Assembly (NCBI GenBank): GCA_024694565.1
Contig: JAILJR010000139.1
Location: 1 to 36,036, forward strand
Source of the DNA: Butyrivibrio sp.
GTDB lineage: Bacteria > Bacillota > Clostridia > Lachnospirales > Lachnospiraceae
DNA length: 36,036 nt
Direction of reading: 5' to 3'
The number at the start of each line of letters is the position of its first letter. The first letter of the stretch is position 1. Positions 11,378-34,067 of this stretch are shown piece by piece. The position numbers and the translations under genes are program-made. The notes under the pieces are model-generated. The model searched no databases, had not been told where the DNA came from, and saw nothing but the letters and a program-made list of their open reading frames with translations.

Positions 11378-11400
11378 AAAACTTTGCCTTTCATAAATAA

Positions 11401-11610
11401 TATGAGTTGGCCGACAAAAGCCCGCCAGTCCATCTCCGGCTGTGCATATTGTACAATCACTTCGGACACGCTCTCGCTCCTTTCGCTTCGTAGCGGTACT
11501 AAGCACGAAAACACCTCGCTAAGTACCGACGAGCTCATAGGGCCACTCAGCCTATTGTGCAATATGCACAGCCGGAACTGGCCTGGTGAGCTTTTGTCGG
11601 TCGGCTCATA
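11401..11610. repeat. Long palindromic element A with conserved core, in the yczE-like leader
   Basis: Two 57-base arms (11401-11457 and 11554-11610) match as inverted repeats at 48 of 57 positions. The middle holds a core: ACGCTCTCGCTC (11468-11479), then CGT-AG-CGGTACT-A-AGC (11489-11504) pairing with GCT-A-AGTACCG-ACG (11518-11531), with an AG bulge on one strand and an A-A mismatch. Element B repeats this core. On the minus strand it would be transcribed in the 5' leader of the gene at 10667-11377. Confidence 0.8.
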
Positions 11611-11626
11611 ATATGTAACAGTCTTC

Positions 11627-11635
11627 ATTATAACA
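11627..11635 (-). promoter_or_regulatory. Extended -10 promoter upstream of element A
   Basis: The minus strand reads TGTTATAAT immediately before the right arm of element A and points towards the yczE-like gene. The predicted start near 11619 puts the complete palindrome in the transcript. The rest of the gap up to 11799 shows nothing else. Confidence 0.5.
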
Positions 11636-11798
11636 GCAGGGCTGATTTCCTGCCACTAGGTTTTGGGTTTGCGGGAACGACGCTGAAATCAAAAGGGAAG
11701 ACGCTTGTTACAAGTCCCCCTGCAGGCAGTAATGGCTTATGATATATCAAATAAAATAACTGCACCTTTAATCAGCTGATGAATTGTGATGTGCTTTA

Positions 11799-11835
11799 GA
11801 AAAAACATCCTGCACCGTTTTGATGCAGGATGTTT
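11799..11835 (-). terminator. Intrinsic terminator of the truncated surface-protein gene
   Basis: A perfect 12-bp stem, AAACATCCTGCA (11803-11814) with TGCAGGATGTTT (11824-11835). On the minus strand it ends in a run of six T. It starts eight bases after the stop codon at 11843. Confidence 0.8.
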
Positions 11836-11842
11836 AAAATAC

Positions 11843-13105
11843 TTAATCAGTCTTTAGTCCAAACTTGCCGCCCAGATATAAGAAACCGGTGAAACCGTTT
11901 TTGTCTACAAGAGACATTGCGTCGGTTCCTTTTGGAATTACTACCATGCAGCGGTTTCCTTTATAGCCTTCATCGAGGAAGCTGATCTCCAGCGTTACGT
12001 CCGGTCGTTCTGCCAGAGCTTCCATTACCATCTTGTGGAAGGATATCCACTTTGCAGTCTTAATCATTACTGTGGCATTCCTGGGAGCTTTTCTGATCTT
12101 CTCTGTTGTGTTCTTGTTGAAAACGTTGTAGGCGGTCAGCGGTACTCTGGTCTGAATATAACCGCAGATCTCACACTGGTATCTTAGCTCTCCGTCTTCT
12201 TCTTCTGTTGCTTCAAATGTTTCCCAGATGAACTTATGCACATGCTCGTCGCCTGTTTTCTTCGGAGGAATGTAGCCGACAGGAACAACGGTTACTTTGC
12301 AGCTTGCCGAGTACTCTTTTCCATCAACCTTGATAGTCGCTGTGATGGTTGCTGTTCCTGCTTTATTTCCTTTCACAACTCCGCTTCCATCCACAGAGGC
12401 AACCGACGGATTCGAGCTGCTCCATGTAACAGAAGTTCCCTCAGGGGTTGTCGTGGCTTTGAGAGCCTTTTCCGTGCCCTGTGTGATAGTTGTCTCCGAA
12501 ACACTAAGTGTTACGCCGGCTTCAGTTGGTGTTGGTTCCGGAGTTGGCGTTGGTGTCGGTGTCGGCGTCGGTGTTGGTGTCGGTGCGGGTTCAGGCGTAT
12601 CATCTTTATCATAAGTATAGGTATAAAGAGTATTCTCTGCTATTGTTGCCCCTGCTTCCGGCGTTTTATCCCAGCTGCCCTTCTTGTAGCCTGCGTTTGG
12701 ATTTGTACTAACATTCGGGATCACATTCTCAGGAAGTTTAATGGTTTCGCCATCTTTTGCAGTTAATGCTACGTTTATATCTTCTGTCGTTCCATCATCC
12801 CAGGAACCATTTACTACCTTGAAAGAAACAATCCTGGTTATCACTCCTAGCGGTGCATAGATGTAGGTATATGTTGTATCCGCAGTTATAGCTGTATCAG
12901 GACTTGGAGTCTTGTCCCAGATGCCTTCCTTATAGCCATCGCCCGGTTTTGCTCCTGCTGCAGGTATCTGATCAGCTGTAAGCTTAAGCGTATCACCCTC
13001 TTTTCCTGTCAGAGTAACTTTTATGTCATCTTTCTTTCCATCATTCCAGAAGCCATTTTTGCAAGGGGCCTTTGGCACCCTTGCAAGATGCCTTTGTGTA
13101 CACAC
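11843..13105 (-). CDS. 5'-truncated cell-surface protein (repeat domains, Big_2, C-terminal module)
   Basis: The frame encodes two copies of an extracellular repeat (NGFWNDG...TYTYIYAP and NGSWDDG...LYTYTYDKD, about residues 17-84 and 98-168). A Pro-Thr linker and a Big_2 Ig-like domain (about 195-276, TLSVSETTITQGTE, WSSSNPSVASVDGSGVVKG) follow. A C-terminal module has H-x-H, CEICG and RPDVTLEISFLDEGYKG. Such domains belong to secreted proteins, yet there is no signal peptide: the frame begins at a GTG with no RBS, shortly after an in-frame TAG, and the first repeat is cut near 13060. A tight hairpin (13061-13085) lies at that junction. Most likely the 3' remnant of a larger adhesin-like gene, so a pseudogene in practice. 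Confidence 0.7.
   Translation of the reverse strand: MCTQRHLARVPKAPCKNGFWNDGKKDDIKVTLTGKEGDTLKLTADQIPAAGAKPGDGYKEGIWDKTPSPDTAITADTTYTYIYAPLGVITRIVSFKVVNGSWDDGTTEDINVALTAKDGETIKLPENVIPNVSTNPNAGYKKGSWDKTPEAGATIAENTLYTYTYDKDDTPEPAPTPTPTPTPTPTPTPEPTPTEAGVTLSVSETTITQGTEKALKATTTPEGTSVTWSSSNPSVASVDGSGVVKGNKAGTATITATIKVDGKEYSASCKVTVVPVGYIPPKKTGDEHVHKFIWETFEATEEEDGELRYQCEICGYIQTRVPLTAYNVFNKNTTEKIRKAPRNATVMIKTAKWISFHKMVMEALAERPDVTLEISFLDEGYKGNRCMVVIPKGTDAMSLVDKNGFTGFLYLGGKFGLKTD
13061..13085. repeat. Tight hairpin at the truncation point of the surface-protein gene
   Basis: GCAAGGGGCC pairs with GGcaCCCTTGC (one bulged base) around a three-base loop. Homology to the surface-protein repeat ends at this hairpin, so it may mark the recombination or insertion junction. 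No T-run follows on either strand. Confidence 0.5.
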
Positions 13106-14266
13106 AGGCGAATCTTGCTAATTTTTATTAACGGTATTTTGATAATTTATGACGATAACGTCATTTAGATGTCTGGAAAGTTTCTGACCGGAAAAGGCAT
13201 TAAGACGGCACAGGAAGACCCATTTCTTCCGCATAAGTTTTTTCTTGCAATGTGCCGAAGTAAAAAGACAGCTTCTTGATTTCATCAGCATCAGCTTATG
13301 CATGAATGACAGGCAAAAATGCAAAGAAAAGAGAATGCCTGCTATGTTGTTTGATCAGGGAAAGTGCTGCTGCAAGAACTGTGGCAGTTGGTCCTTCGAT
13401 TTTTTTGTCATCAGAAAACAGAATCAAAACTTAGACTACTATCCCACAGGAAAAATATTAATCAAGCGGGAGTTCTTAAGATGAAGCCGGTGGTTGTTTG
13501 CGTTTTTTATATATCAACAAATCTAAAACGTCGAAAGTATGGTATGTAAACCCAACTCTTTATACACATCTAAAAATCGATTTTTTCCAATTCCGGATAT
13601 CGTCAAAAATCTATGCCCATCCAAAAAGCCAATTTCCTTAATTTTAGATAGCACTTCCCTGCTATTTTTTTCTTTTGACTAAACCAAAATTTTCAAAACA
13701 CGAAAAATAGATGTTGTCTTGCATCTTTTTTTCCATAATTCAGGAATTAGCTGTATACAAATCATAACTCAGAGAGTGGTGAGACATCTAAATTTAGAAT
13801 TTTTGTATTTTAGATGTAGTGATAAAAATCCTGCTATCCCGAATTTGAATTTTTTGTATTTTAGATGAGTTTTTGAATGACTTTGAAACAATTTCTTTAA
13901 GATAGCAGAAAAGTACGTTTTTTTCTTATATCACTCATAAGGTTTGTACCCCAAAAATAAAGTGTTTTCTTTTCTGTTTGCGCCTAACCGGCTCGCGGCT
14001 GTCACGTCAAACCTGCCAATAGAATCCATGTATCCCCCTAACAGTAGGGATTTACACTTCATAGCCAACACAATGTCTCCTGTTGAAAAATAAAGGAACT
14101 TTAGTTTAACTTAATTGTGCGAGATTGTCGCCATATGCCGCGTTGTCATCAGTCGTCGAGCACGTTCTGTTCAAGTAATTCTCCAAGAGAGAAAGGCACT
14201 GATCACCTTCCAAATTCAAGCATCTGACAGAAAATTTTATATTTTTTAAAAAAACATGAAAATTTA
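13106..14266. other. AT-rich non-coding stretch with repeated TTTAGATG words
   Basis: I see no supported gene in this 1.2 kb. Short frames at 13118-13324 and 13245-13484 overlap on opposite strands, lack RBS and read as low-complexity. The octamer TTTAGATG or its complement occurs at 13164, 13567, 13785, 13809 and 13860. The last two are within a direct repeat (TTTTTGTATTTTAGATG) about 51 bases apart. ACATCTAAA (13784-13792) and TTTAGATGT (13809-13817) form a hairpin. The stretch separates the truncated surface gene from the next secreted protein and may be decayed sequence. Confidence 0.5.
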
Positions 14267-14296
14267 TTGCCACAGGTTCAATTCACTTCGTATAAA
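14267..14296 (+). promoter_or_regulatory. Promoter of the secreted repeat protein (TTGCCA-18-TATAAA)
   Basis: TTGCCA at 14267-14272 and TATAAA at 14291-14296 are 18 bases apart. The predicted start near 14303 lies after the first in-frame ATG (14300), which supports ATG 14354 as the real start. Confidence 0.6.
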
Positions 14297-14353
14297 TAAA
14301 TGTCAAAACAAAAATATAATAATTATGGCCAAGAGCCAGGGAGGGAAAATAAA

Positions 14354-15121
14354 ATGAAAAAGACTATTGTTACAAGGGTACTCACAATCGCAACCGCAGC
14401 AGTTATGTTTGCAGGATCACTTACAGCAGGTGCCTGTGCTGCACCGGCAATCAGGGTTGAGGCAGCTGATGCTTCTTTTACACAGACACTTTTAAACGCT
14501 TTTGATTCTCAGTTCTATGCTTCAAAATATGCCGATGTAAAGAAGGCTTATGGCAATGATGCTGATGCTCTCTTTGCTCACTTTCTCAATAACGGGATGA
14601 AGGAAGGCCGCATGATAAATGCAAACTTTGATCCCAAGGCTTATATCCAGGCTTACTCAGATGTAAAGTCATACTGCAACGGCAGCTATACAAAGGCATA
14701 TGAACACTACTACAAGATCGGAAGAGCCGAAGGCAGAAGCCTTACAACCTTTGCAGCAATCGACGCACAGAAAAACGCAGCAAAGACACAGAAAGAGATC
14801 CAGAAAAAGGTAATAAATAATCTTCCTGTATACAGAGACGTTAACCTTGGCTATGGCCTCACAGTTTCACTCAGCAACAAGCAGCTTGACAGCTGCATCG
14901 TCTACATATTTGAGAGCGATTACGGCTATGGCGCATACATAAATGAGAGCCTTGTTGCAACATCTGGCTTTTTCAGGACAGAAGGAGCTTCTCTCTACTC
15001 AACAATTGTATTTGATGACGGCGACATGACCGAGATCATCAACGACACTCCTTCTTACAGTGATGACGAGCTTGCAGATGCCCTTGCACTCGGAATGGTA
15101 CTCTACGCTTTGTCAGAGTAA
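14354..15121 (+). CDS. Secreted protein with two YxDV/EGR repeats
   Basis: 255 aa. A signal peptide (MKKTIVTRVLTIATAAVMFAGSLTAGACA, cleaved near AxA) is followed by two copies of a roughly 40-residue repeat: FDSQFYASKYADVKKAYG...HFLNNGMKEGR and FDPKAYIQAYSDVKSYCNG...HYYKIGRAEGR. This repeat is frequent in secreted and surface proteins of Lachnospiraceae (from memory). The C-terminal half (about residues 150-255) is unassigned. No anchor motif is seen, so it is probably released or held non-covalently. The start is set by GGGAGG eight bases upstream and by the promoter position. The gene stands alone between an AT-rich region and a strong terminator. Confidence 0.75.
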   Translation: MKKTIVTRVLTIATAAVMFAGSLTAGACAAPAIRVEAADASFTQTLLNAFDSQFYASKYADVKKAYGNDADALFAHFLNNGMKEGRMINANFDPKAYIQAYSDVKSYCNGSYTKAYEHYYKIGRAEGRSLTTFAAIDAQKNAAKTQKEIQKKVINNLPVYRDVNLGYGLTVSLSNKQLDSCIVYIFESDYGYGAYINESLVATSGFFRTEGASLYSTIVFDDGDMTEIINDTPSYSDDELADALALGMVLYALSE

Positions 15122-15161
15122 GCAGGTGCACAATCTGATTAAATAAAATACTTGCAACGCA

Positions 15162-15207
15162 AAAGGGACTGTGAAAAAATGTTTTCTCATTTTTTCACAG
15201 TCCCTTT
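15162..15207. terminator. Bidirectional terminator hairpin between convergent genes
   Basis: A perfect 20-bp stem: AAAGGGACTGTGAAAAAATG (15162-15181), six-base loop, and its complement (15188-15207). It lies 40 bases after the secreted-protein stop and about 100 bases after the end of bioY on the other strand. Confidence 0.75.
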
Positions 15208-15304
15208 GAATTTACAACTTATACACATGGTCAGAAGCTGGTCACATAGCATCCGATCCTTCAAAGATGCTAATTTCTGTCAAGCTGTGCCAATTTTTTA
15301 CTAT

Positions 15305-15871
15305 TTAATTCCTGATCACAGGCTCTATCCTTTTTGAGACCACAAAAGCCAGCACCAGCTTAAGAAGGTCCGGGAGGACAAACGGGAACACGCACCATCC
15401 AAGTACCGTAAGCATGCCGACCTCTCCGCTGTTTTTCATATATACATGCATGAACCACACTGTTCCAAATGCATAACATACAGTAAGGCCCAGAACAAGT
15501 GCGGCTGCCTTAACAACCAGGCTCTTCCCCAGAAATTTTGTGGCCAGCATATATATAAGGCCTACAAACAGAAATCCTACTATATATCCCCCGGTAGTAC
15601 CGAAAAGAACTCCGAACCCACCGGTAAATCCTGCAAAAACAGGCAGTCCGGTTGCTCCAAGCAGCACATATACAAGTGTTGCTATTGTCCCTCTCTCACC
15701 TCCCAAAAGGAGCAGGACGAAAAATACCGCAAATGTCTGCAGTGTAAACGGAACTGCAGTGGGGATGCTGATCCAGGAACATATTGCTATCAGAGCTGCT
15801 CCGATTGCAATATATACCAGATCCAGTACTTTTGAATTATCTCTCGTTTTAGCTACTTCTGTTGTGCTCAT
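15305..15871 (-). CDS. bioY: Biotin transporter BioY (ECF S component)
   Basis: 188 aa with six membrane segments. ISIPTAVPFTLQTFAVFFVLLLLGGERGTIATLVYVLLGATGLPVFAGFTGGFGVLFGTTGGYIVGF is the classic BioY signature, with biotin-site residues in PFTLQT and GLPVFAG. It captures biotin, alone or with a shared ECF energy module encoded elsewhere. ATG 15871 is chosen because GGAGGT lies seven bases before it; the earlier in-frame ATG at 15886 overlaps the Shine-Dalgarno. It starts 20 bases after the HD/RyR-like gene, so the two are probably co-transcribed, an odd pairing. Confidence 0.92.
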   Translation of the reverse strand: MSTTEVAKTRDNSKVLDLVYIAIGAALIAICSWISIPTAVPFTLQTFAVFFVLLLLGGERGTIATLVYVLLGATGLPVFAGFTGGFGVLFGTTGGYIVGFLFVGLIYMLATKFLGKSLVVKAAALVLGLTVCYAFGTVWFMHVYMKNSGEVGMLTVLGWCVFPFVLPDLLKLVLAFVVSKRIEPVIRN

Positions 15872-15891
15872 TGTCTTTACCTCCAAATTTG

Positions 15892-17976
15892 TTAGCGCGC
15901 AAACCGGTATATTCTCAGCCCGTCAAACCTTCTTATCAGTCTCAGCATACAGTTGAAAGGCTGAAAATCCTTATTCTGCTCGCTTTCAGGCAGAAAACTC
16001 CGGTAGTGCAAAAGAATATCCTCTGTTTTCAGCTCTCCATCCATTGCCATTGCATGGCAGCGTGACTGCTCACGAATTGCTTTCCGGTATTGTTTTTCAG
16101 GGATATCTCCCGGCACCGGTACATGTTCATAAAAATCATTGCAGCTCCACCCCATCGACTGATGCTCACGCACCCATCTTTCATGCTCCATTGGTGCGAT
16201 ACATTCAATCTCCTCCGGCGTAAACTCATCCACCATGTCGAAATCCACCTGACGATCCGTATAGAAGCAATGAATTGCATTCAGATACCTGCTGAAACTC
16301 TTTACCTGATTAATATTAGCTAATTTATATTCAAGTGACAATACCGAAAATTCTTTTTCCATCGTGGATTTCTCCACTTCGTCCACATCACCTTCATGGG
16401 CATGACGGGCATTCAGAACCACCGCAAAGTCATGCATGTGAAGGAAACTGCTGTCCGAAAGGTATATGTGCTTGTTTCCTCTGTTCACAGGCGCAATATC
16501 ACACACAACAGTAATCGGAATACCGTCGGTATCAACAATTTTCTCAATGTCTTTTACAAAGCTGTTCTCCGTATTGGCCATATCGCTGTATACCTTCAGC
16601 TTTGGTGCATCTCCCTGCCGGCCGTTCTTTTTCCACTCAACACAGGCCCATAAATATGCGTCGATCTTTTCCTGTTCAGCTTCGTCGTACTGATATCTCG
16701 CGATGAGGCGGTTTTTGCTGAAATCAAATTCCACAGCCATAGGATGTAATTCACTTCTGGAATTCCTTCCGTATGCCGTGCGGTCCCAGCACTGAAGCTC
16801 ATCGCACAGCATCAGAAGCCATGCCATGGGATGAATATCCATGGATAGTGTCGACTTCATTCCGGGCTCTCTCCCGGCAATCGAATACGTGAACAGATCG
16901 TAGTGAAGAAGAATAGCACTCAGTGCGTCTATATGGGCAGGTTTGAAGGTCCCCGGATGCACAGGGTTTTCTTCCCCGGTATCAATTCCCATGGCTACTG
17001 TCAGTTCGTGGAAAAGACAGAGCGTGCTGAAGTAGGCATGATCCATATAATAGCAGAAGCTCTCAGGCGAAACAGGCTTCTTCCTGAGGGTCTTCAGCAG
17101 GTAATCCTCTGTAAACCCATAGGTTTTTCCAAGCTTCAGGGTAAGATCGTGGACCATCACCTCATCGATTGTCCGGAAGCTTCTTCCGTACATTTTTCTG
17201 AAGAGCTCCTGAGCCTGAGGCCCCAGTTCAGTCATTGTCTTGATATTATTGTAAACAATGAACGGTGTGTGTGTTCCACGATCGTCATCACCGGCCTCAA
17301 AGAAGGAAATCACCTGTTCAAATGTCAGCTCAAAGGGATAGCCCACATCGTGAAACAAAGCTGTCTTTCCCCAGTATTCAAGGAAGAAATGTGCCGCTTT
17401 CCGGGATTCTTTGGGATCCTCTGCATCAGTCGAAAAATGATAAAAGCTGTTAAATGCCCTTCGGAAGTTTTCATTTGTTTCATAGATGGCAAGGCCGAGC
17501 ACGAAAACGTACACCGAATGTGAAAAATGATCCCGGTGCTTCATCAGCAGAGAACAGCCATTGGATTCATATTCGCTTAGCAGCTCTATGATCTTTTTCG
17601 ATTTTCCGTAGCTTCCGAAAAAGATCTCCATGAAACAGTAATATACACTGTAGGCATCCTGCGTTGCCCCGGAATCCATGAATCTCTCCAGTTCACGCTC
17701 AAGACAGAGCCGGTTTATATCCATCTGCATATTGTAGGGTATCTGGTTCGGAGCAACACTTGTGCCGCGGTAAACCCCCGTGCGCTCTTCCTCCTCTTCT
17801 ATCTGTTTGTCAAAAAGCAGATCCTCACAGCTCTCATGCATAAAGCGCAAAACCGCAGATTTCAGGTCATAGCCTTCCCCTGCTTCGCAAGACAGCACAG
17901 GCTGAAAGGGTCCTGTGTCTTTTCCAAATCTCTGTTTGTTTAACGATCTCATTTTTTCAAATGCCGAATATGCCAT
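15892..17976 (-). CDS. Large protein with an HD-like domain and a C-terminal RyR-like domain
   Basis: 694 aa, soluble. Residues about 145-400 look like a divergent HD metal-dependent phosphohydrolase: KHRDHFSHSVYVFVLG (His147/150/153), GKTALFHDVGYPFE (His209-Asp210), an AHIDALSAILLHYD helix (His348/358), and MAWLLMLCDELQCWDR with the closing Asp392. Residues about 588-650 read EIECIAPMEHERWVREHQSMGW followed by an Arg/Lys-rich helix, the pattern of the prokaryotic RyR domain (EHxRW-x7-GW). RyR domains in bacteria have been linked by comparative genomics to nucleotide-centred signalling and conflict systems. Role here is unknown: a nucleotide sensor or hydrolase is inference. AGGAAGG precedes the ATG. 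Followed by bioY. Confidence 0.65.
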   Translation of the reverse strand: MAYSAFEKMRSLNKQRFGKDTGPFQPVLSCEAGEGYDLKSAVLRFMHESCEDLLFDKQIEEEEERTGVYRGTSVAPNQIPYNMQMDINRLCLERELERFMDSGATQDAYSVYYCFMEIFFGSYGKSKKIIELLSEYESNGCSLLMKHRDHFSHSVYVFVLGLAIYETNENFRRAFNSFYHFSTDAEDPKESRKAAHFFLEYWGKTALFHDVGYPFELTFEQVISFFEAGDDDRGTHTPFIVYNNIKTMTELGPQAQELFRKMYGRSFRTIDEVMVHDLTLKLGKTYGFTEDYLLKTLRKKPVSPESFCYYMDHAYFSTLCLFHELTVAMGIDTGEENPVHPGTFKPAHIDALSAILLHYDLFTYSIAGREPGMKSTLSMDIHPMAWLLMLCDELQCWDRTAYGRNSRSELHPMAVEFDFSKNRLIARYQYDEAEQEKIDAYLWACVEWKKNGRQGDAPKLKVYSDMANTENSFVKDIEKIVDTDGIPITVVCDIAPVNRGNKHIYLSDSSFLHMHDFAVVLNARHAHEGDVDEVEKSTMEKEFSVLSLEYKLANINQVKSFSRYLNAIHCFYTDRQVDFDMVDEFTPEEIECIAPMEHERWVREHQSMGWSCNDFYEHVPVPGDIPEKQYRKAIREQSRCHAMAMDGELKTEDILLHYRSFLPESEQNKDFQPFNCMLRLIRRFDGLRIYRFAR

Positions 17977-18079
17977 AACCGCCTTCCTGTTCTGCCAGAC
18001 CTGACTCTTTTTTCAGGCTCTGTCAATCTGCTCTGGTGTAGTATCTAAATCACTTTTATTTTGTGCCGGATTGTTGTCA

Positions 18080-18152
18080 TATGCAACGAGCCGTCCGCAA
18101 TAATCCGCCCGACAAGCTAAAACTGTGCCGGCATTTATCGGTCGGCTCATGC
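18080..18152. repeat. Short palindrome E (core-less, shares ends with element A)
   Basis: ATGCAACGAGCCGTCCG at the left is matched by CGGTCGGCTCATGCAA at the right with one mismatch in the ten-base GAGCCG part. The right end equals that of element A (TCGGTCGGCTCAT). The remainder of the 17977-18173 gap shows nothing else. Confidence 0.55.
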
Positions 18153-18173
18153 AAAGCAAAAAAAGGAACCGAT

Positions 18174-18318
18174 GCCCCTGCAGCGTATCATTGTCCGTTA
18201 TCCGGAGCTATAAATATATCACCGTCTGTTACCCGGGGGGCTATAAATGTATCACCGTCCGTTACCCGGGGCAATAAGTGTATCACTGCCCGTTACCCAA
18301 GCCTATAAGTGTATCACT
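18174..18318. repeat. 31-bp tandem repeat spanning the 3' end of the EIIC-EAL gene
   Basis: Four units and a fragment: 18288-18318 (31), 18257-18287 (31), 18224-18256 (33), 18193-18223 (31), and the partial 18174-18192. On the minus strand the first unit encodes the last residues of the EIIC-EAL protein and the second supplies its TGA. Because 31 is not a multiple of three, each unit is read in a new frame. Confidence 0.85.
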
Positions 18319-20379
18319 GTCAACCGCCGGGCTGAAAAGATATCCCTGATAAAGGAGACAACCGATCTCTTCGAGCACTTCCTTCTGCTTTTCGGTCTCA
18401 ACATATTCTGCCAGAACCCTGAAGTTCAGAGACCCTGACAAATGAACGATAGAAGCGATGATATCTCTGGTGCGTTCATTGTCAAGCATTCCCTTTACCA
18501 GATTACCATCAAGCTTCACAATATCAAACTGGTTGTGCTGCAGGTACTGAAGTGAAGTATGCCCCATACTGAAATCATCCAGGGCGAGGGTGTATCCAAA
18601 TAGCCTTATGGCGGATAACAGCTCTCCGGTTTCTTCTGTTGCAGCAAGCTCTGTTTCCTCCGTGATCTCCAGACATATATTTCCTGTTCTCAGTTTATAC
18701 CTGTCTGCCATCGCCCTGGCAAAATCTAAAAACCTCCTGTCAAAAAGCGTCGATACCGTTACATTTATGCTCAGCTTGAAGTCCTCACCAAAGCTCTGCC
18801 GGAATCTTTCTGATTCCCGGATTGACCTCTCGATGATATATGTCTCCAGGGAATATAAGATCCCGCTTTCTCCGGCTATCTTTATGGCAAGCGGCGGATA
18901 TATCCCGCCAAACGTTTTGTGCTCCCACCTAAGAAGTGCCTCTGCACCTATGCATTTCCCGTGACTGTCATACTGCGGCTGATACTTTATCAGCAGCGGA
19001 TTCTCCACGTTAAAGAGTGACGAGACCGTTCTTGCTTCGGAAATTGATGCCTCCAGCTCTGATGCAAGATGCTTGGCCAGTCTTCCGGTGTTTCCCTCGC
19101 TCTCGATGAGAACAACCTCCTGATTTGTCTCCTCGCTCCTTTTAAGGAGGCCAATAAGTCTGTCCATCCCTGATGAAAAGACGCCTGAGGATTTCTTTTC
19201 ATTGCGAATGACAAACGGAGCATAGCATATCCCGGAAATGAGAATGTTCAATAACTGGACCACGATTCCCCTGGCTGAGCCTGTCGCGATATAGCCGCTC
19301 ATCAGCGCCGGTGTTGTCCACACAACCTCCCTGGTAACCGGTGGAACGAATCCCACCATCGTGAGAAAATATGCGTTGGAAAAACTAAGGACAGGCGCCA
19401 GTATAAAAGGGATCAGCATCACCGGATTGTATATCACCGGCATTCCAAAAACGAGCATTTCTCCTATATTAAACACCCCCGGAACAAGCGCCATTCCGCA
19501 TAATTTTCTGGTCGATCGTCTTTTTCCAAATATCACAAGTGCAAGGAGAAGACCTGTCAGACACCCTGTTCCACCCATATTTACAAAGGTGTCGATGAAG
19601 CTCTTTGAAACTATCTCCCCCGGTATGATCGCGGTAAACATATCTTCTGCGACCTGATTTAACACATTATTGCCGTGAATGCCAAACCACCACATGATAC
19701 TGATCAGCGTGGTGAAAAGAATACCGCTGGAGTAAGATCTGTGCATCTTAAGGAAGATCATATCCACCGCTTTCATGAACAGATGCTGAAGGCTCTTAAC
19801 CTGAAAGCATACCGTGATCAGATAATTCCCCACGGCAAAAGTAAGTGCCACGCAGAGAAACGGAAGGATAACCAAAAGCGCCGCATTAAACTCCGAATCC
19901 GCACCGTCAATGAATACCATCTTTCTTTTGACAAAGATCTTTTCAAACCGGCAAAAGAGAGCCGAACCCGCAATACCTGCAAGAAGTGCGCTGAATACTC
20001 CCTGTCCGCTCAGAAGGGAAAGATCAGCCTCCCCCGAGAAAAAGCCTACAAGGATAAAGAAACCGCTGATGCACCCGAGGAGGCTTCCGAATTCGAAGAC
20101 AGTCCTCTTCCCACCGCCTTTTTGTTTCATATAGCTTATGTTGAGCGCTATGGTTATGTATATGGCGAGTATTCCAAGTGTTGTAAACTGCAGCATTATG
20201 ATCAGGCTTCTGAGCGCTCCGCCCAAAAATGAATCCAGAAAATCCTGGTAGCCCTGTACAGGAAACCCGTTCAGCAGAACTGTGACACTACCTATGAAAA
20301 GAATGGGTATCACCATTGCAAGCCCTGATCTTATTGTTCGGGCTATAAATGATGCCCCGGTCAACAAATTTGCTTTCAT
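18283..20379 (-). CDS. PTS EIIC (lactose/cellobiose type) fused to an EAL c-di-GMP phosphodiesterase
   Basis: 698 aa. Residues about 1-395 are a PTS_EIIC membrane domain with about ten helices and the sugar-site segment FNIGEMLVFGMPVIYNPVMLIPFILAP. After a linker comes an EAL domain (about 445-690) with EALLRW (Glu480), SINVTVSTL, CLEITEETEL, LALDDFSMGHTSLQYL, VKLDG, AEYVETE and YQGYLFSPA. All metal and catalytic positions appear present, so it is probably active; AEGVET is changed to AEYVET. No EIIA or EIIB is fused, which suggests EIIC acts as a sugar sensor or a transporter fed by other PTS parts. Its start is two bases after the kinase stop with AGAGGAAAG inside the kinase gene: tight operon. 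The C-terminus runs into a 31-bp tandem repeat. Confidence 0.88.
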   Translation of the reverse strand: MKANLLTGASFIARTIRSGLAMVIPILFIGSVTVLLNGFPVQGYQDFLDSFLGGALRSLIIMLQFTTLGILAIYITIALNISYMKQKGGGKRTVFEFGSLLGCISGFFILVGFFSGEADLSLLSGQGVFSALLAGIAGSALFCRFEKIFVKRKMVFIDGADSEFNAALLVILPFLCVALTFAVGNYLITVCFQVKSLQHLFMKAVDMIFLKMHRSYSSGILFTTLISIMWWFGIHGNNVLNQVAEDMFTAIIPGEIVSKSFIDTFVNMGGTGCLTGLLLALVIFGKRRSTRKLCGMALVPGVFNIGEMLVFGMPVIYNPVMLIPFILAPVLSFSNAYFLTMVGFVPPVTREVVWTTPALMSGYIATGSARGIVVQLLNILISGICYAPFVIRNEKKSSGVFSSGMDRLIGLLKRSEETNQEVVLIESEGNTGRLAKHLASELEASISEARTVSSLFNVENPLLIKYQPQYDSHGKCIGAEALLRWEHKTFGGIYPPLAIKIAGESGILYSLETYIIERSIRESERFRQSFGEDFKLSINVTVSTLFDRRFLDFARAMADRYKLRTGNICLEITEETELAATEETGELLSAIRLFGYTLALDDFSMGHTSLQYLQHNQFDIVKLDGNLVKGMLDNERTRDIIASIVHLSGSLNFRVLAEYVETEKQKEVLEEIGCLLYQGYLFSPAVDSDTLIGLGNGQ

Positions 20380-20381
20380 CG

Positions 20382-23318
20382 TCAGCTTTCCTCTTTAACC
20401 TCCGCTATTATCCCATCCCAGTCCAGTTCTGTGAGCTTTCTTTCTATATTACTGATTCTGTCCCTGCCTTTAGAAGAAAGGCGATACCCTCGCAGCTCCT
20501 TCAGTAAGTCCTCCATCAGGCCATAATCCATGCTTCCTGCTATCTCCAGAATGGTCTGATATGCTTCCTTCAGGTCAGTATCAGGAATCTCCGGCAGATC
20601 TTCATCTGTCTGTTCAAGCCACATTAGCTTCCCGCCAAGTCCTCTGTACATCTCAAGGAGCCTTTGGGTATTTCCTTGTATTACTTTTGTATCGCTTCTC
20701 TTTCCTGCATCCTCAAGCTCTTTTGCAAGCTCCGACAATGCAGCTGCCCCGATCATCCGGGCTGAGCTCTTGAGCGCATGCACCTTTATGGTATAGTTTT
20801 GCAGATCACCGCTGTTGTAGTACCCTTCTATCTCATCCGCCTTGGAAGGGATGGTCCGGCAAAAGACCTCCAGCACCGACCTGTATGTGTCCTCAGATCC
20901 GCAGTTATGCAGTCCTGACTTTTCATCGATTTCGGAAATGCCCGTAAGCCGGGCCAAAAAATCAGATGTCTTTCCTGCTTCTAAATCTTCATCAGGCTGC
21001 ATTTCACAATCCGGACCGGCAGTTTCCGGCTTCGTAACTTTTTCGGCAGGAAGCAGCTTTAAAAGCATCTCTTCGAGCCTTAATCCGTCCACCGGCTTTG
21101 ACAGATAATCGGTGAAGCCTGCCTCCAGATACATTTCCCTTGCTCCTGAAACAGCATTGGCAGTCAGGGCAACTGCCGGCGATTTGCAGCTTTTCCCCTC
21201 CTTCCTTATATTTGAAAGAGTTTCAACTCCGTCCATATCAGGCATCATGTGGTCGATGAATATCACATCATAATGGGTATCAGCGGCCAGCTTTATTGCT
21301 TCCTTTCCGGAAAGAGCCGTGTCTATATGGATTTCTGTCTTTTTAAGAAGCCCCTTTATGACTACAAGATTCATCTCAGTATCATCCACAACCAGAATGC
21401 GCGCATCGGGGGCATGGAACAGCTCACGATACTCATAGGCGCTCTGTGACAGCTCATCAAGTCTTGCTGCGTAATCTCCAAGCTCCTCCCACCTGCTGAC
21501 CTCCTGACAGATTTTAAAGGAAAACTCTGAGCCGACGCCATATTCGCTATGCACATTCAGAGAACCTCCCATGAGCTCAAGAAGCTGCCTTGTGATGCTC
21601 ATACCAAGCCCTGTTCCTTCTATGGTCCGGTTCCGCTTCTCTTCTATGCGCTTGTAGGGTGAGAAAAGATTCTCCATGTCCTCCTCCTTCATTCCGATTC
21701 CCGTATCAGACACGGAAAAATGAAGAAGAATGTGATCGCTGTCTTCCTTATTATATGATATCTTAAGCTTCACCTCTCCCTTCTCGGTATATTTCACCGC
21801 GTTTGTGAGAAGGTTCATGGCGCACTGCCTGATGCGGATCTCATCACCGATAAGCATTCGCGGTATGCCTTCATCCGCCTGAACGGTAAACTTAAGTCCC
21901 TTTTTGACAGCTCTTCCGCGGATGATGTTGACCAGATCATTTATCAGTATCGACAGGTCATATGAAACGGGGATAATCTCCATTTTGCCCTCTTCGACCT
22001 TTGAGAGATCCAATATGTCATTGATGAGAGAAAGCAGCGTCTGCCCTGCGGACTTTATGTCTGCAGCATATGCGCGGATATTTTTTTCATTCGATTCCCG
22101 CAGGATCATCTCATCCATGCCAAGCACAGCATTGATGGGAGTTCTTATCTCATGGGACATACTTGCAAGGAACCTTGATTTTGCTTCATTGGCGCGGTCC
22201 GCCACCTCCTTCTTATCCTGCAGCTCCTCCATATATCTGTAGTGCTCCGTGTCATCCACCAGAGCATAGAGTTTGCCGTAACACTCACCATTGTACATGA
22301 GGTCATTTTCTTCAGGAGTATAGATACGGTCTGCCACATTGAGAGTTTTCCCATTCCTGACAGCACTCTGTATCATGGAAAGAACATCATACGGTGTATA
22401 GAGCTGCCTCAGCCTGCCCGTATCATCCCTCACCGCATAGGAGTCTTTTTTTATCAGGACACCGGGCTTTTGCGCAAGGAGTGACTTTGCGGAATAGAAC
22501 GTGTCAAACTGAGGATAGATTGCAGCAACCGGCTCATTGAAATACTGGATTCTCCCGTCATTGTCCACGGCAATGACTCCCTCGGATATCCTGTCGATAG
22601 CAAAATCCTTCGCAATTTCTCTTGTTCCAAGCAGATCAAATTTCAGGATCCCAATCAGCATGAAAACCGTTCCAAGAAGCGCTCCCGGCATAGTCAGATC
22701 GTAATAATCGGTAAACCCAAAGGCTCCTGTCAGCTGCATAAAGAAAAAGAGTATCTGAATACCGAATGCCATGACCAGCATCAGTATGCGCTGTTTGGAC
22801 ATTCTGTTTTTTTCTGTGAGATAATCCCTCGCGACCCAGAAAAAGGCAAAGGAGACCAATACTGCATTTAAACTCATAAACAGGTCATGAACACTTCCAT
22901 TGCCGTGGGAAAACCTGGGAAACATCGGATCCGCGATGTACCTGTAACTGCTGTAGTACAGATTGTTAATGCCTATTGTAAGAACCGAGATGTAAACCCC
23001 TACGTGCAGACAGATGATAACGAACAGGATACTCTTTGGGATCCTGATCCTGCACATTTTGGCAGAAAACAGAAAAAACGCAAGAACAATCCATACCCTT
23101 CCGGCATATGAAAGCTTAAGGGCCGTGATATACGCCTCTTCCGTCTTCGCATTCATTTGAAACAGATATCCCAGATTGCTTATAAATGATGCAATACAGG
23201 CCAGGAGCAGATAAGAATGTATCGTGTTCTTACACCTCATGAACACGACCAGTATCTCAACAAACAATACGCTTACCGTTATACCTTGCACCGTCAGCAA
23301 TATAGAATGAATATTCAT
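20382..23318 (-). CDS. Hybrid sensor histidine kinase (7TM - PAS-like - HisKA - HATPase - REC - HPt)
   Basis: 978 aa. An N-terminal 7-helix region (about residues 1-230) resembles the 7TM histidine-kinase input domain. A PAS-like segment follows (EGVIAVDNDGRIQYFNEPV). The kinase core has SHEIRTP with His389, N-box LLTNAVKYTEKGEV, DTGIGM and GTGLGMSI. A receiver (ILVVDDTEMN, Asp689 in FIDHMMPDMDG, ALTAN, SKPVDG) leads to an HPt domain with His847 in VHALKSSARMIG. This is a self-contained phosphorelay whose final output must be another protein. The co-transcribed EIIC-EAL gene has no receiver, so coupling would be by level or contact. GGAGTC precedes the ATG. The predicted leader contains all of element B. 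Confidence 0.9.
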   Translation of the reverse strand: MNIHSILLTVQGITVSVLFVEILVVFMRCKNTIHSYLLLACIASFISNLGYLFQMNAKTEEAYITALKLSYAGRVWIVLAFFLFSAKMCRIRIPKSILFVIICLHVGVYISVLTIGINNLYYSSYRYIADPMFPRFSHGNGSVHDLFMSLNAVLVSFAFFWVARDYLTEKNRMSKQRILMLVMAFGIQILFFFMQLTGAFGFTDYYDLTMPGALLGTVFMLIGILKFDLLGTREIAKDFAIDRISEGVIAVDNDGRIQYFNEPVAAIYPQFDTFYSAKSLLAQKPGVLIKKDSYAVRDDTGRLRQLYTPYDVLSMIQSAVRNGKTLNVADRIYTPEENDLMYNGECYGKLYALVDDTEHYRYMEELQDKKEVADRANEAKSRFLASMSHEIRTPINAVLGMDEMILRESNEKNIRAYAADIKSAGQTLLSLINDILDLSKVEEGKMEIIPVSYDLSILINDLVNIIRGRAVKKGLKFTVQADEGIPRMLIGDEIRIRQCAMNLLTNAVKYTEKGEVKLKISYNKEDSDHILLHFSVSDTGIGMKEEDMENLFSPYKRIEEKRNRTIEGTGLGMSITRQLLELMGGSLNVHSEYGVGSEFSFKICQEVSRWEELGDYAARLDELSQSAYEYRELFHAPDARILVVDDTEMNLVVIKGLLKKTEIHIDTALSGKEAIKLAADTHYDVIFIDHMMPDMDGVETLSNIRKEGKSCKSPAVALTANAVSGAREMYLEAGFTDYLSKPVDGLRLEEMLLKLLPAEKVTKPETAGPDCEMQPDEDLEAGKTSDFLARLTGISEIDEKSGLHNCGSEDTYRSVLEVFCRTIPSKADEIEGYYNSGDLQNYTIKVHALKSSARMIGAAALSELAKELEDAGKRSDTKVIQGNTQRLLEMYRGLGGKLMWLEQTDEDLPEIPDTDLKEAYQTILEIAGSMDYGLMEDLLKELRGYRLSSKGRDRISNIERKLTELDWDGIIAEVKEES

Positions 23319-23338
23319 AGAGACTCCGTTTATTAAGA

Positions 23339-23535
23339 TACAATTCAGCGGTCAGCCAGGACAGGACAGCCCGACGCGATGTATGACTGCCCGGAGGACG
23401 CTCTCGCTCAGTGAAAAACGTAGCGGTACTAAGGCGCTAAAGTACAGCGCCTAAGTGCCGACGTTTTTCAATGCCCTCCGGCTCAGTCATACATTCGCTC
23501 TGGGCTGTCCTGTCCTGGCTGCCCACTGAATTGTA
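23339..23535. repeat. Long palindromic element B with conserved core, in the kinase leader
   Basis: Outer arms pair ACAATTCAG...CAGCCAGGACAGGACAGCCC and ATGTATGACTG...CCGGAGG with their complements at the right. The core has ACGCTCTCGCTC (23398-23409), GAAAAACGT-AG-CGGTACT-A-AGGCGCT (23414-23438) and the partner AGCGCCT-A-AGTGCCG-ACGTTTTTC (23446-23469). It shares the AG bulge and A-A mismatch with element A. It lies between the minus-strand kinase gene and its predicted promoter. Confidence 0.85.
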
Positions 23536-23568
23536 ACAATAAGAATTACCTTTACTCAGCCTAAAAGC

Positions 23569-33810: not shown

Positions 33811-33839
33811 GTAAAGTTAAATAATCCATTGTATCGTTG

Positions 33840-33943
33840 CAATTCAGTAGTCAGCCGGACGGAGCAGGCCGCCGCAAGTGAAAGTCTGCCCGGGGTGCCT
33901 TTCACTTGCTCCGGCCTGCTCCGTCCGGCTGACTACTGAATTG
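33840..33943. repeat. Near-perfect palindrome C (shares ends with element B, no core)
   Basis: A 32-base arm (33840-33871) is perfectly complementary to 33912-33943. After a three-base mismatch, ten more bases pair perfectly (33875-33884 with 33899-33908), leaving a 14-base loop, TCTGCCCGGGGTGC. The outer ends CAATTCAGTAGTCAGCC match the ends of element B, and the loop resembles ACTGCCCGGAGGACGC beside the core of B. C therefore looks like B with the core deleted. Confidence 0.9.
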
Positions 33944-34067
33944 TTATGAAATTGACCTTCAAAAAACAATTGACATAAGCCCCCCATTTGGAGGAGTATA
34001 TATAGGGTATGACTTTTCGGATTTTGGAAAACCCGGGAAGCAAAAAACTATTTTAGGAGGTATTATT

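Follow-up and report, generated by a model that had tools for sequence, protein, structure and literature searches.

A family of gene-free mobile DNA hairpins with a covarying core, dispersed in gut and rumen bacteria

A contig of Butyrivibrio sp. (JAILJR010000139.1, assembly GCA_024694565.1), analysed over 36,036 nucleotides and called the window here, carries two long palindromes, element A and element B, which enclose a common structured core. Both are members of a group of short mobile DNA hairpins that contain no genes and are dispersed in gut and rumen bacteria. Because the copies are dispersed, follow no orientation rule, differ in presence or absence between sister species, often have 7-8 bp target duplications in the genome that carries the window (the home genome) and, in the B-type copies, share ends with IS66-like insertion sequences, we read them as non-autonomous mobile elements, not as leader RNAs. 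The mobility of the family is well supported in the home genome. It is probable that A and B are palindromes of about 200 bp resembling miniature inverted-repeat transposable elements (MITEs), that their movement is directed by their ends, and that their core is kept as a folded plus strand.

Two palindromes in the window share a structured core

The initial annotation had described two palindromes with the same core order, and the analysis bore this out. On the plus strand, element A folded with a z-score of -14.3 and element B with a z-score of -17.2, and in either case none of 200 shuffled sequences was equally stable; the minus-strand z-scores were -9.2 for A and -17.2 for B. The boundaries of both elements are now sharper (Table 1), and the AG bulge and the A.A mismatch noted earlier are seen in both sequences. 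Element A is 204 bp and element B 201 bp in length, the termini of B itself being GATAC...GTAAC. Both are crossed by short chance open reading frames (ORFs) only and contain no transposase gene. The window contained no Rfam family at gathering score, and element B alone gave sub-threshold matches to unrelated families.

The core is widespread and its copy number varies

An exact core pattern was found 20 times in the home genome (13 forward, 7 reverse; control 0), and a covariance model (R2) raised this to at least 67 core-bearing copies, all 67 candidates that were scored being matches. Among 61 genomes of the genus the core was matched in 41, with copy numbers from 0 to at least 67. A covariance-model search across Lachnospiraceae, as the initial annotation had proposed, likewise found further copies: in a sample of 200 genomes of this family, one per genus, 87 had a match and 15 of these had 20 copies or more. 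A pattern scan of genome contigs gave at least 111 stretches bearing the core pattern; the 80 whose titles were listed came mainly from Lachnospiraceae, Eubacteriaceae and further members of Clostridia, and one each came from Schwartzia and a Selenomonadaceae. The same element was found at a same-genus locus (L021) and at a Butyrivibrio locus (L095). The core had no match in the plasmids or viral contigs searched, and no paper describing these elements was found among the open-licence literature listings searched. The sole match in a phage collection, MT837545.1 (L504), is filed as an unverified bacteriophage. A weak core match lies between two of its genes, whose products look like cobalt/ECF-type ABC ATPases; a further protein resembles a membrane partner, and the record looks bacterial.

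Element ends, target duplications and an IS66-like partner

Copies in the home genome sort into several end types. At up to three mismatches, the A-type end GAGYYGCCCGACAAAAGCTCRCC occurred 175 times and the B-type end GTTACAATTCAGYKGYCAGCC 167 times, compared with 0 and 1 occurrences, respectively, of the reversed-pattern controls. Beside the class of about 200 bp there are short forms of 53-114 bp, and all eight of those examined are without the core stem, as well as long forms of 277-321 bp, three of which (293 bp each) have an expanded tip. A core-less hairpin with B-type ends also lies in the window (33836-33947), and from its tip it looks like a B-type element after deletion of the core.

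When copies were defined by their ends, flanking 8-mers were alike at 7 or more of 8 bases in 10 of 35 B-type copies (expected 0.0), and flanking 7-mers were alike at 6 or more of 7 bases in 9 of 22 A-type copies (expected 1.9). Target duplications were also present at the core-less short forms L387, L355 and L390. A generic edge finder gave perfect 8-mer duplications in 8 of 47 home-genome copies, where 0.2 were expected. The first duplication scan, which found at least 7 exact bases in 5 of 52 copies (1.3% expected), was blunt because the palindromy extends into the duplication.

The B-type ends, GTTACARTTCAG, and the 8-bp duplications are common to IS66-like elements of sister species (genomes G012, G257 and G283). 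A and B themselves have no transposase gene, and the A-type ends differ from IS66-like ends. In the sister species G012, the insertion sequence is known as separate contig-end pieces; its ends differ from the B-type pattern at 1 of 21 positions, and a C-terminal piece of its transposase matched the NCBIfam model for the IS66 transposase at 6.5e-8, with a score well short of the curated one, and PF03050 weakly (0.016). In G257 and G283, related copies are bordered by the ends GTTACAGTTCAG and the 8-bp duplications CTTTTGCA, ATTTTTTT and TCTTACTT. The first bases are missing from a third copy in G257. A 572-residue protein of G257 matched PF03050 at 1.1e-18, above the cut-off. A DDE transposase may act in trans on the ends and move the B-type copies, and the A-type copies would use another enzyme. 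No autonomous partner of either end type was found in the home genome among the end positions examined, about the first 100 of the 175 A-type and 167 B-type occurrences. The long convergent A-end pairs C82 and C142 enclose ORFs that, by the appearance of their sequence, do not look like transposases. The one IS66-family gene of the home genome had no GTTACAATTCAG-like end (up to two mismatches) in the 2.9 kb examined.

Hairpins are present or absent at orthologous sites

None of 60 other genomes of the genus matched both flanks of element B at one place, and the search for empty sites therefore turned to further loci, in two sister-species pairs that are 85-99% identical over shared stretches. 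Most of the listed copies in these pairs were orthologous, and seven unpaired copies were examined. The hairpin was missing in the sister at L299/L317 and at L286/L312, the latter together with about 80 further unmatched bases. At L285/L313 it was missing with a small arm remnant left, and at L302/L316 the sister retains the 5' half only. Other DNA occupied the site at L300/L315 and L306/L318, and the counterpart of the unpaired copy at L296/L314 was not found in the sister. The comparison of occupied and empty sites, which the initial annotation had proposed for strains, showed the hairpin present in one species and missing in the other at some loci. The suggestion that A and B are mobile elements is upheld by these differences, by a copy number ranging up to at least 67 among genomes of one genus, and by the target duplications in the home genome. 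At one of these sites (L318, 656-1070), G242 has a cluster of another hairpin repeat, GTGTGCCACTGGGGACGGTTCTC, where G243 has a core element.

Placement does not follow neighbouring genes

The orientation set comprised 90 copies with enough flank, in 88 of which both neighbours were typed by a simple ORF caller. The strands of the flanking genes relative to the element were ++ in 26, -- in 29, +- in 18 and -+ in 15 copies, and 3 of the 90 copies fell within ORFs 150 codons or more in length. A replication-strand bias was absent, GC skew along the element being positive in 69 and negative in 66 copies (n=135). ORFs within 2 kb of the cores at L001-L132 were clustered and showed no recurrent mobile-element family, the biggest clusters spanning 9 loci at scattered distances.

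These results bear on the proposal that A and B act in cis as regulatory leader RNAs for the adjoining minus-strand genes; an arrangement of promoter, element and minus-strand gene had been described for both. Part of that description stands: each element sits immediately upstream of an ORF on the minus strand, and a consensus scan placed an extended -10 site for A on the minus strand at 11656-11627, but it found no promoter for B. As a rule, the arrangement fails among the 88 classified copies, which occur in all orientations, and the cores lie beside many different neighbours. The leader function is therefore not supported, and we regard it as barely credible.

Transposases of the Y1 type were considered as well. 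A and B have GTAG beside an imperfect, mismatched hairpin, which resembles repetitive extragenic palindromic (REP) sequences, and the two groups are alike in their many intergenic copies and in the involvement of a folded strand. REP-like elements moved by RAYT, a Y1 transposase acting on folded single-stranded DNA, would fit this likeness, and the home genome has two Y1 genes. However, no core motif was found near either of them. Y1_Tnp occurred in 47 of the 87 genomes of the family sample that have the core and in 69 of the 113 that do not (P 0.39), and was absent from 8 of the 15 genomes with 20 or more core copies. Moreover, target duplications are present in the home genome, and Y1 enzymes are not known to make them. 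Lacking linkage or co-occurrence with Y1, the RAYT explanation is disfavoured and very unlikely. The two Y1 (RAYT-like) genes are 9 kb apart (L135, 1388-2146 and 10248-11288), and one of them adjoins perfect 37-base inverted arms (L135, 10166-10243) that form a hairpin distinct from the core family.

The core fold covaries

The core folds as a three-way junction. Its pairing was examined in two alignments. The first, A3, consists of 48 rows hand-picked for variety from 77 short-tip sequences. These belong to 104 distinct sequences among 138 matches to the exact pattern, and 31 of the matches had no recognisable 3' core strand. Since these matches were gathered by exact pattern, the invariance of GCTCTCGCTC and CGTAGCGGTACT, including the AG bulge, is by construction. 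Standard pairs filled 89.6% of the paired cells in A3 and the covariation score was 0.435, compared with 0.145 in shuffles (0/500) and at most 0.134 when the alignment was slid; pairs with double changes numbered 15, with no excess over the 14.5 of the shuffles.

The second alignment, A4, consists of 36 rows (35 distinct) gathered with the covariance model, for the most part the best copy in each of 29 further genomes. In A4, the structure of which was fitted to that model, 96.3% of the cells were standard, the score was 0.725 versus 0.213 in shuffles (0/500), and 22 of 26 pairs showed double changes; with a two-pair stem added inside the supposed bulge, the count for the three-way junction was 24 of 28 pairs (shuffles 18.1, 0/500). 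The stretch ACGCTCTCGCTC had been taken for an unpaired bulge, a point that needs correction. A two-pair mini-hairpin (GC-TCTC-GC) is possible within it and pairs in 35 of 35 distinct A4 rows, changing from GC to AU in 2 rows and from CG to UA in 3, so that it covaries across genera. Among the unpaired letters of A4, the loop T..C was kept in 36 of 36 rows, the A.A mismatch in 33 of 36 and the AG bulge in 31 of 36 (AA in 4, TG in 1).

Paired columns contained 24 GT versus 4 AC in A4 (9 versus 4 without one column) and 41 versus 20 in A3 (27 versus 20 without one column). This excess of GT over AC favours the plus strand. The slight plus-strand preference noted before is hence stronger than it had appeared, and from these sequences the folded strand leans clearly towards plus. 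A putative factor probably recognises the core in folded single-stranded form, whether in a transcript or in DNA left exposed as it replicates.

Strong covariation, conserved unpaired letters and a plus-strand wobble bias would also be expected if the core were a multi-copy structured RNA gene or domain acting in trans, with the elements spreading because this RNA is useful to them or to the host. Nevertheless, no Rfam family reached gathering score, copies lie in both orientations with diverse flanks, and folded single-stranded DNA would give the same wobble bias; we consider an RNA acting in trans to be quite unlikely.

The core diverges more slowly than the arms

Thirteen orthologous loci, two of them from a third species pair and L214/L489 being left out, were used to compare divergence within and around the elements. 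Differences amounted to 6/483 (1.2%) in the core, 207/2372 (8.7%) in the arms and 578/6697 (8.6%) in the flanks, with a P of 3e-11 for core against arms and of 0.9 for arms against flanks. Both members of each pair were above the listing threshold of about 69 bits; when this threshold was simulated with an assumed 3-6 bits per change, 16-33 core changes were expected, and 6 or fewer occurred in at most 1 of 20,000 draws. In several pairs the arms outpaced the flanks, for example 20.7 versus 10.4%. Three G242/G243 pairs (L301/L308, L303/L311 and L298/L305) had arms only 0.5-1.6% apart within flanks 4.7-11.8% apart, as if the arms had been recently exchanged.

Outside the core, self-complementary arms scoring at least 15 were found in 89 of 98 copies, compared with 1.5% of mismatched controls. 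Nine orthologous pairs were counted for changes in the arms, with L288/L297 left out and one of the nine poorly aligned: 82 base pairs were broken by a single change versus 12 compensated, and double changes numbered 20 versus 7 expected if independent. As broken pairs outnumber compensated ones, the palindromy of the arms is for the most part not preserved at individual loci. Template switching is reported to be able to create and mend hairpins without selection (PMC8794818), so covariation in the arms alone is no proof of selection. Template switching or recombination near the tip of the hairpin may be what generates the palindromic arms; it would account as well for the occurrence of one core in several arm types.

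The earlier claim of selection on a folded strand accordingly divides. For the core it is supported by sequence comparison, given the 24 of 28 pairs with double changes, the GT bias in A4 and a divergence about 1/7 of that of the arms; for the outer arms it fails, as they diverge at the flank rate and more pairs were broken than compensated.

Instead of being selected at each locus, the core may have been homogenised, hairpin tips being cut or mispaired and then repaired from other copies by gene conversion. We hold this to be possible though clearly the less likely explanation. Twelve copies of G126 have a near-identical inner stretch, with their own core variant, and differing arms; tips and halves have been swapped among home-genome copies (L004, L012, L017); and arms diverging faster than flanks in several orthologous pairs would fit as well. 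On the other hand, the conversion tract would need to end within tens of bases, and the conserved letters are mainly the unpaired ones, which conversion alone does not predict. Gene conversion would touch the core only and is compatible with the elements being mobile.

Several observations weigh against non-autonomous, end-directed mobile elements with a selected core. A comparison of the flanks of element B gave no matching target duplication. Among copies from other genomes, the generic edge finder found 7-8 bp duplications in 0 of 99 (expected 0.3), so that the same route of spread is not established outside the home genome; an earlier set gave perfect 8-mers in 0 of 93, and an excess of 5-mers (27 versus 10.9) was mostly repeat sequence inside one genome's elements. 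No matching transposase was found in the home assembly, which is 82% complete, the G012 piece having no match there at E 1e-8. Across the genus, the occurrence of IS66 genes does not follow that of the core: they were found in 16 of 41 core-positive versus 10 of 20 core-negative genomes (P 0.58). The differences between sister species are unpolarised as to gain or loss, the A4 alignment leans towards the model that collected it, and the constraint on the core could reflect gene conversion. IS66 as a general carrier of the core is disfavoured by the same co-occurrence counts.

Modular build and relation to known repeats

In the home genome, one inner hairpin occurs in several different palindromic outer arms (A, C and D types, L020). 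The expanded tip is found in the A-type copy L004 and in the B-type copies L381-L383; in L017 the 5' half is of A type and the 3' half of C type, and in L012 the core is mirrored. In G126, the inner stretch is common to the twelve copies and the parts outward of it differ. This modularity could have come about through nested insertion, recombination or fold-back copying, each of which would be sufficient. Other long hairpins, such as GTGTTACGGTTGCAAACCGTAACAC, lie inside the tip or arm of the core elements L026, L121 and L130.

A broader proposal, which we think rather unlikely, is that the core is a family-wide module whose folded plus strand, as RNA or single-stranded DNA, is recognised by a putative factor independently of transposon ends, and that replicative fold-back at the tip copies one flank onto the other and so turns any adjacent insertion-sequence end into a matched pair. 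If true, the core would serve as an all-purpose device that generates palindromic mobile elements.

The attC sites of integrons, too, are imperfect hairpins whose arms vary and whose extrahelical bases are conserved, and it is their folded strand that is recognised. By this general description alone, the core elements are likened to attC by their imperfect hairpin and conserved extrahelical bases. REP/RAYT systems differ in that no link to Y1 genes was found here and target duplications are present. The pneumococcal BOX, RUP and SPRITE repeats and the Neisseria Correia elements (PMC3049150, PMC10969869) are likewise small, gene-free, strongly foldable and interspersed, with inverted repeats at their ends, target duplications, ends like those of resident-type insertion sequences and, in BOX, a modular interior. 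Unlike those repeats, nearly the whole element is one palindrome here, and a covarying core is common to differing ends across many genera. Palindromic MITE-like repeats are already known; a covarying, constrained core shared among different transposon ends is unusual.

That a constrained core with free arms recurs across the family suggests a so far overlooked event of recognition or homogenisation, and the covariance model offers a concrete probe for the putative recognising factor. The elements also offer a natural test of whether compensatory changes stem from selection or from template switching. Contigs of the home genome repeatedly end at this class of repeat.

Features of the window

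Table 1. Coordinates of the elements and of their parts in the window
Feature	Positions	Strand	Basis
Left copy of the 7-bp target duplication of element A, ATAATAT	11397..11403	.	sequence
Element A, palindromic mobile hairpin with core, 204 bp, A-type ends GAG...CTC	11404..11607	+	
Core of A, ACGCTCTCGCTC, containing the covarying mini-hairpin GC-TCTC-GC	11468..11479	+	
Core of A, stem 5' strand CGT-AG-CGGTACT-A-AG, with AG bulge and first A of the A.A mismatch	11489..11503	+	
Core of A, stem 3' strand CT-A-AGTACCG-ACG	11519..11531	+	
Right copy of the target duplication of element A, ATAATAT	11608..11614	.	
Element B, palindromic mobile hairpin with core, 201 bp, B-type ends G(A/T)TAC...GTAAC	23337..23537	+	
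Core of B, ACGCTCTCGCTC with mini-hairpin	23398..23409	+	
Core of B, stem 5' strand	23419..23433	+	
Core of B, stem 3' strand AGTGCCG, with a T.G wobble on the plus strand	23451..23463	+	
Core-less hairpin with B-type ends, 112 bp, no match to the core model	33836..33947	+	

Between the two elements, the minus strand of the window at 18283-20379 encodes a single protein in which a PTS EIIC domain is fused to an EAL domain.

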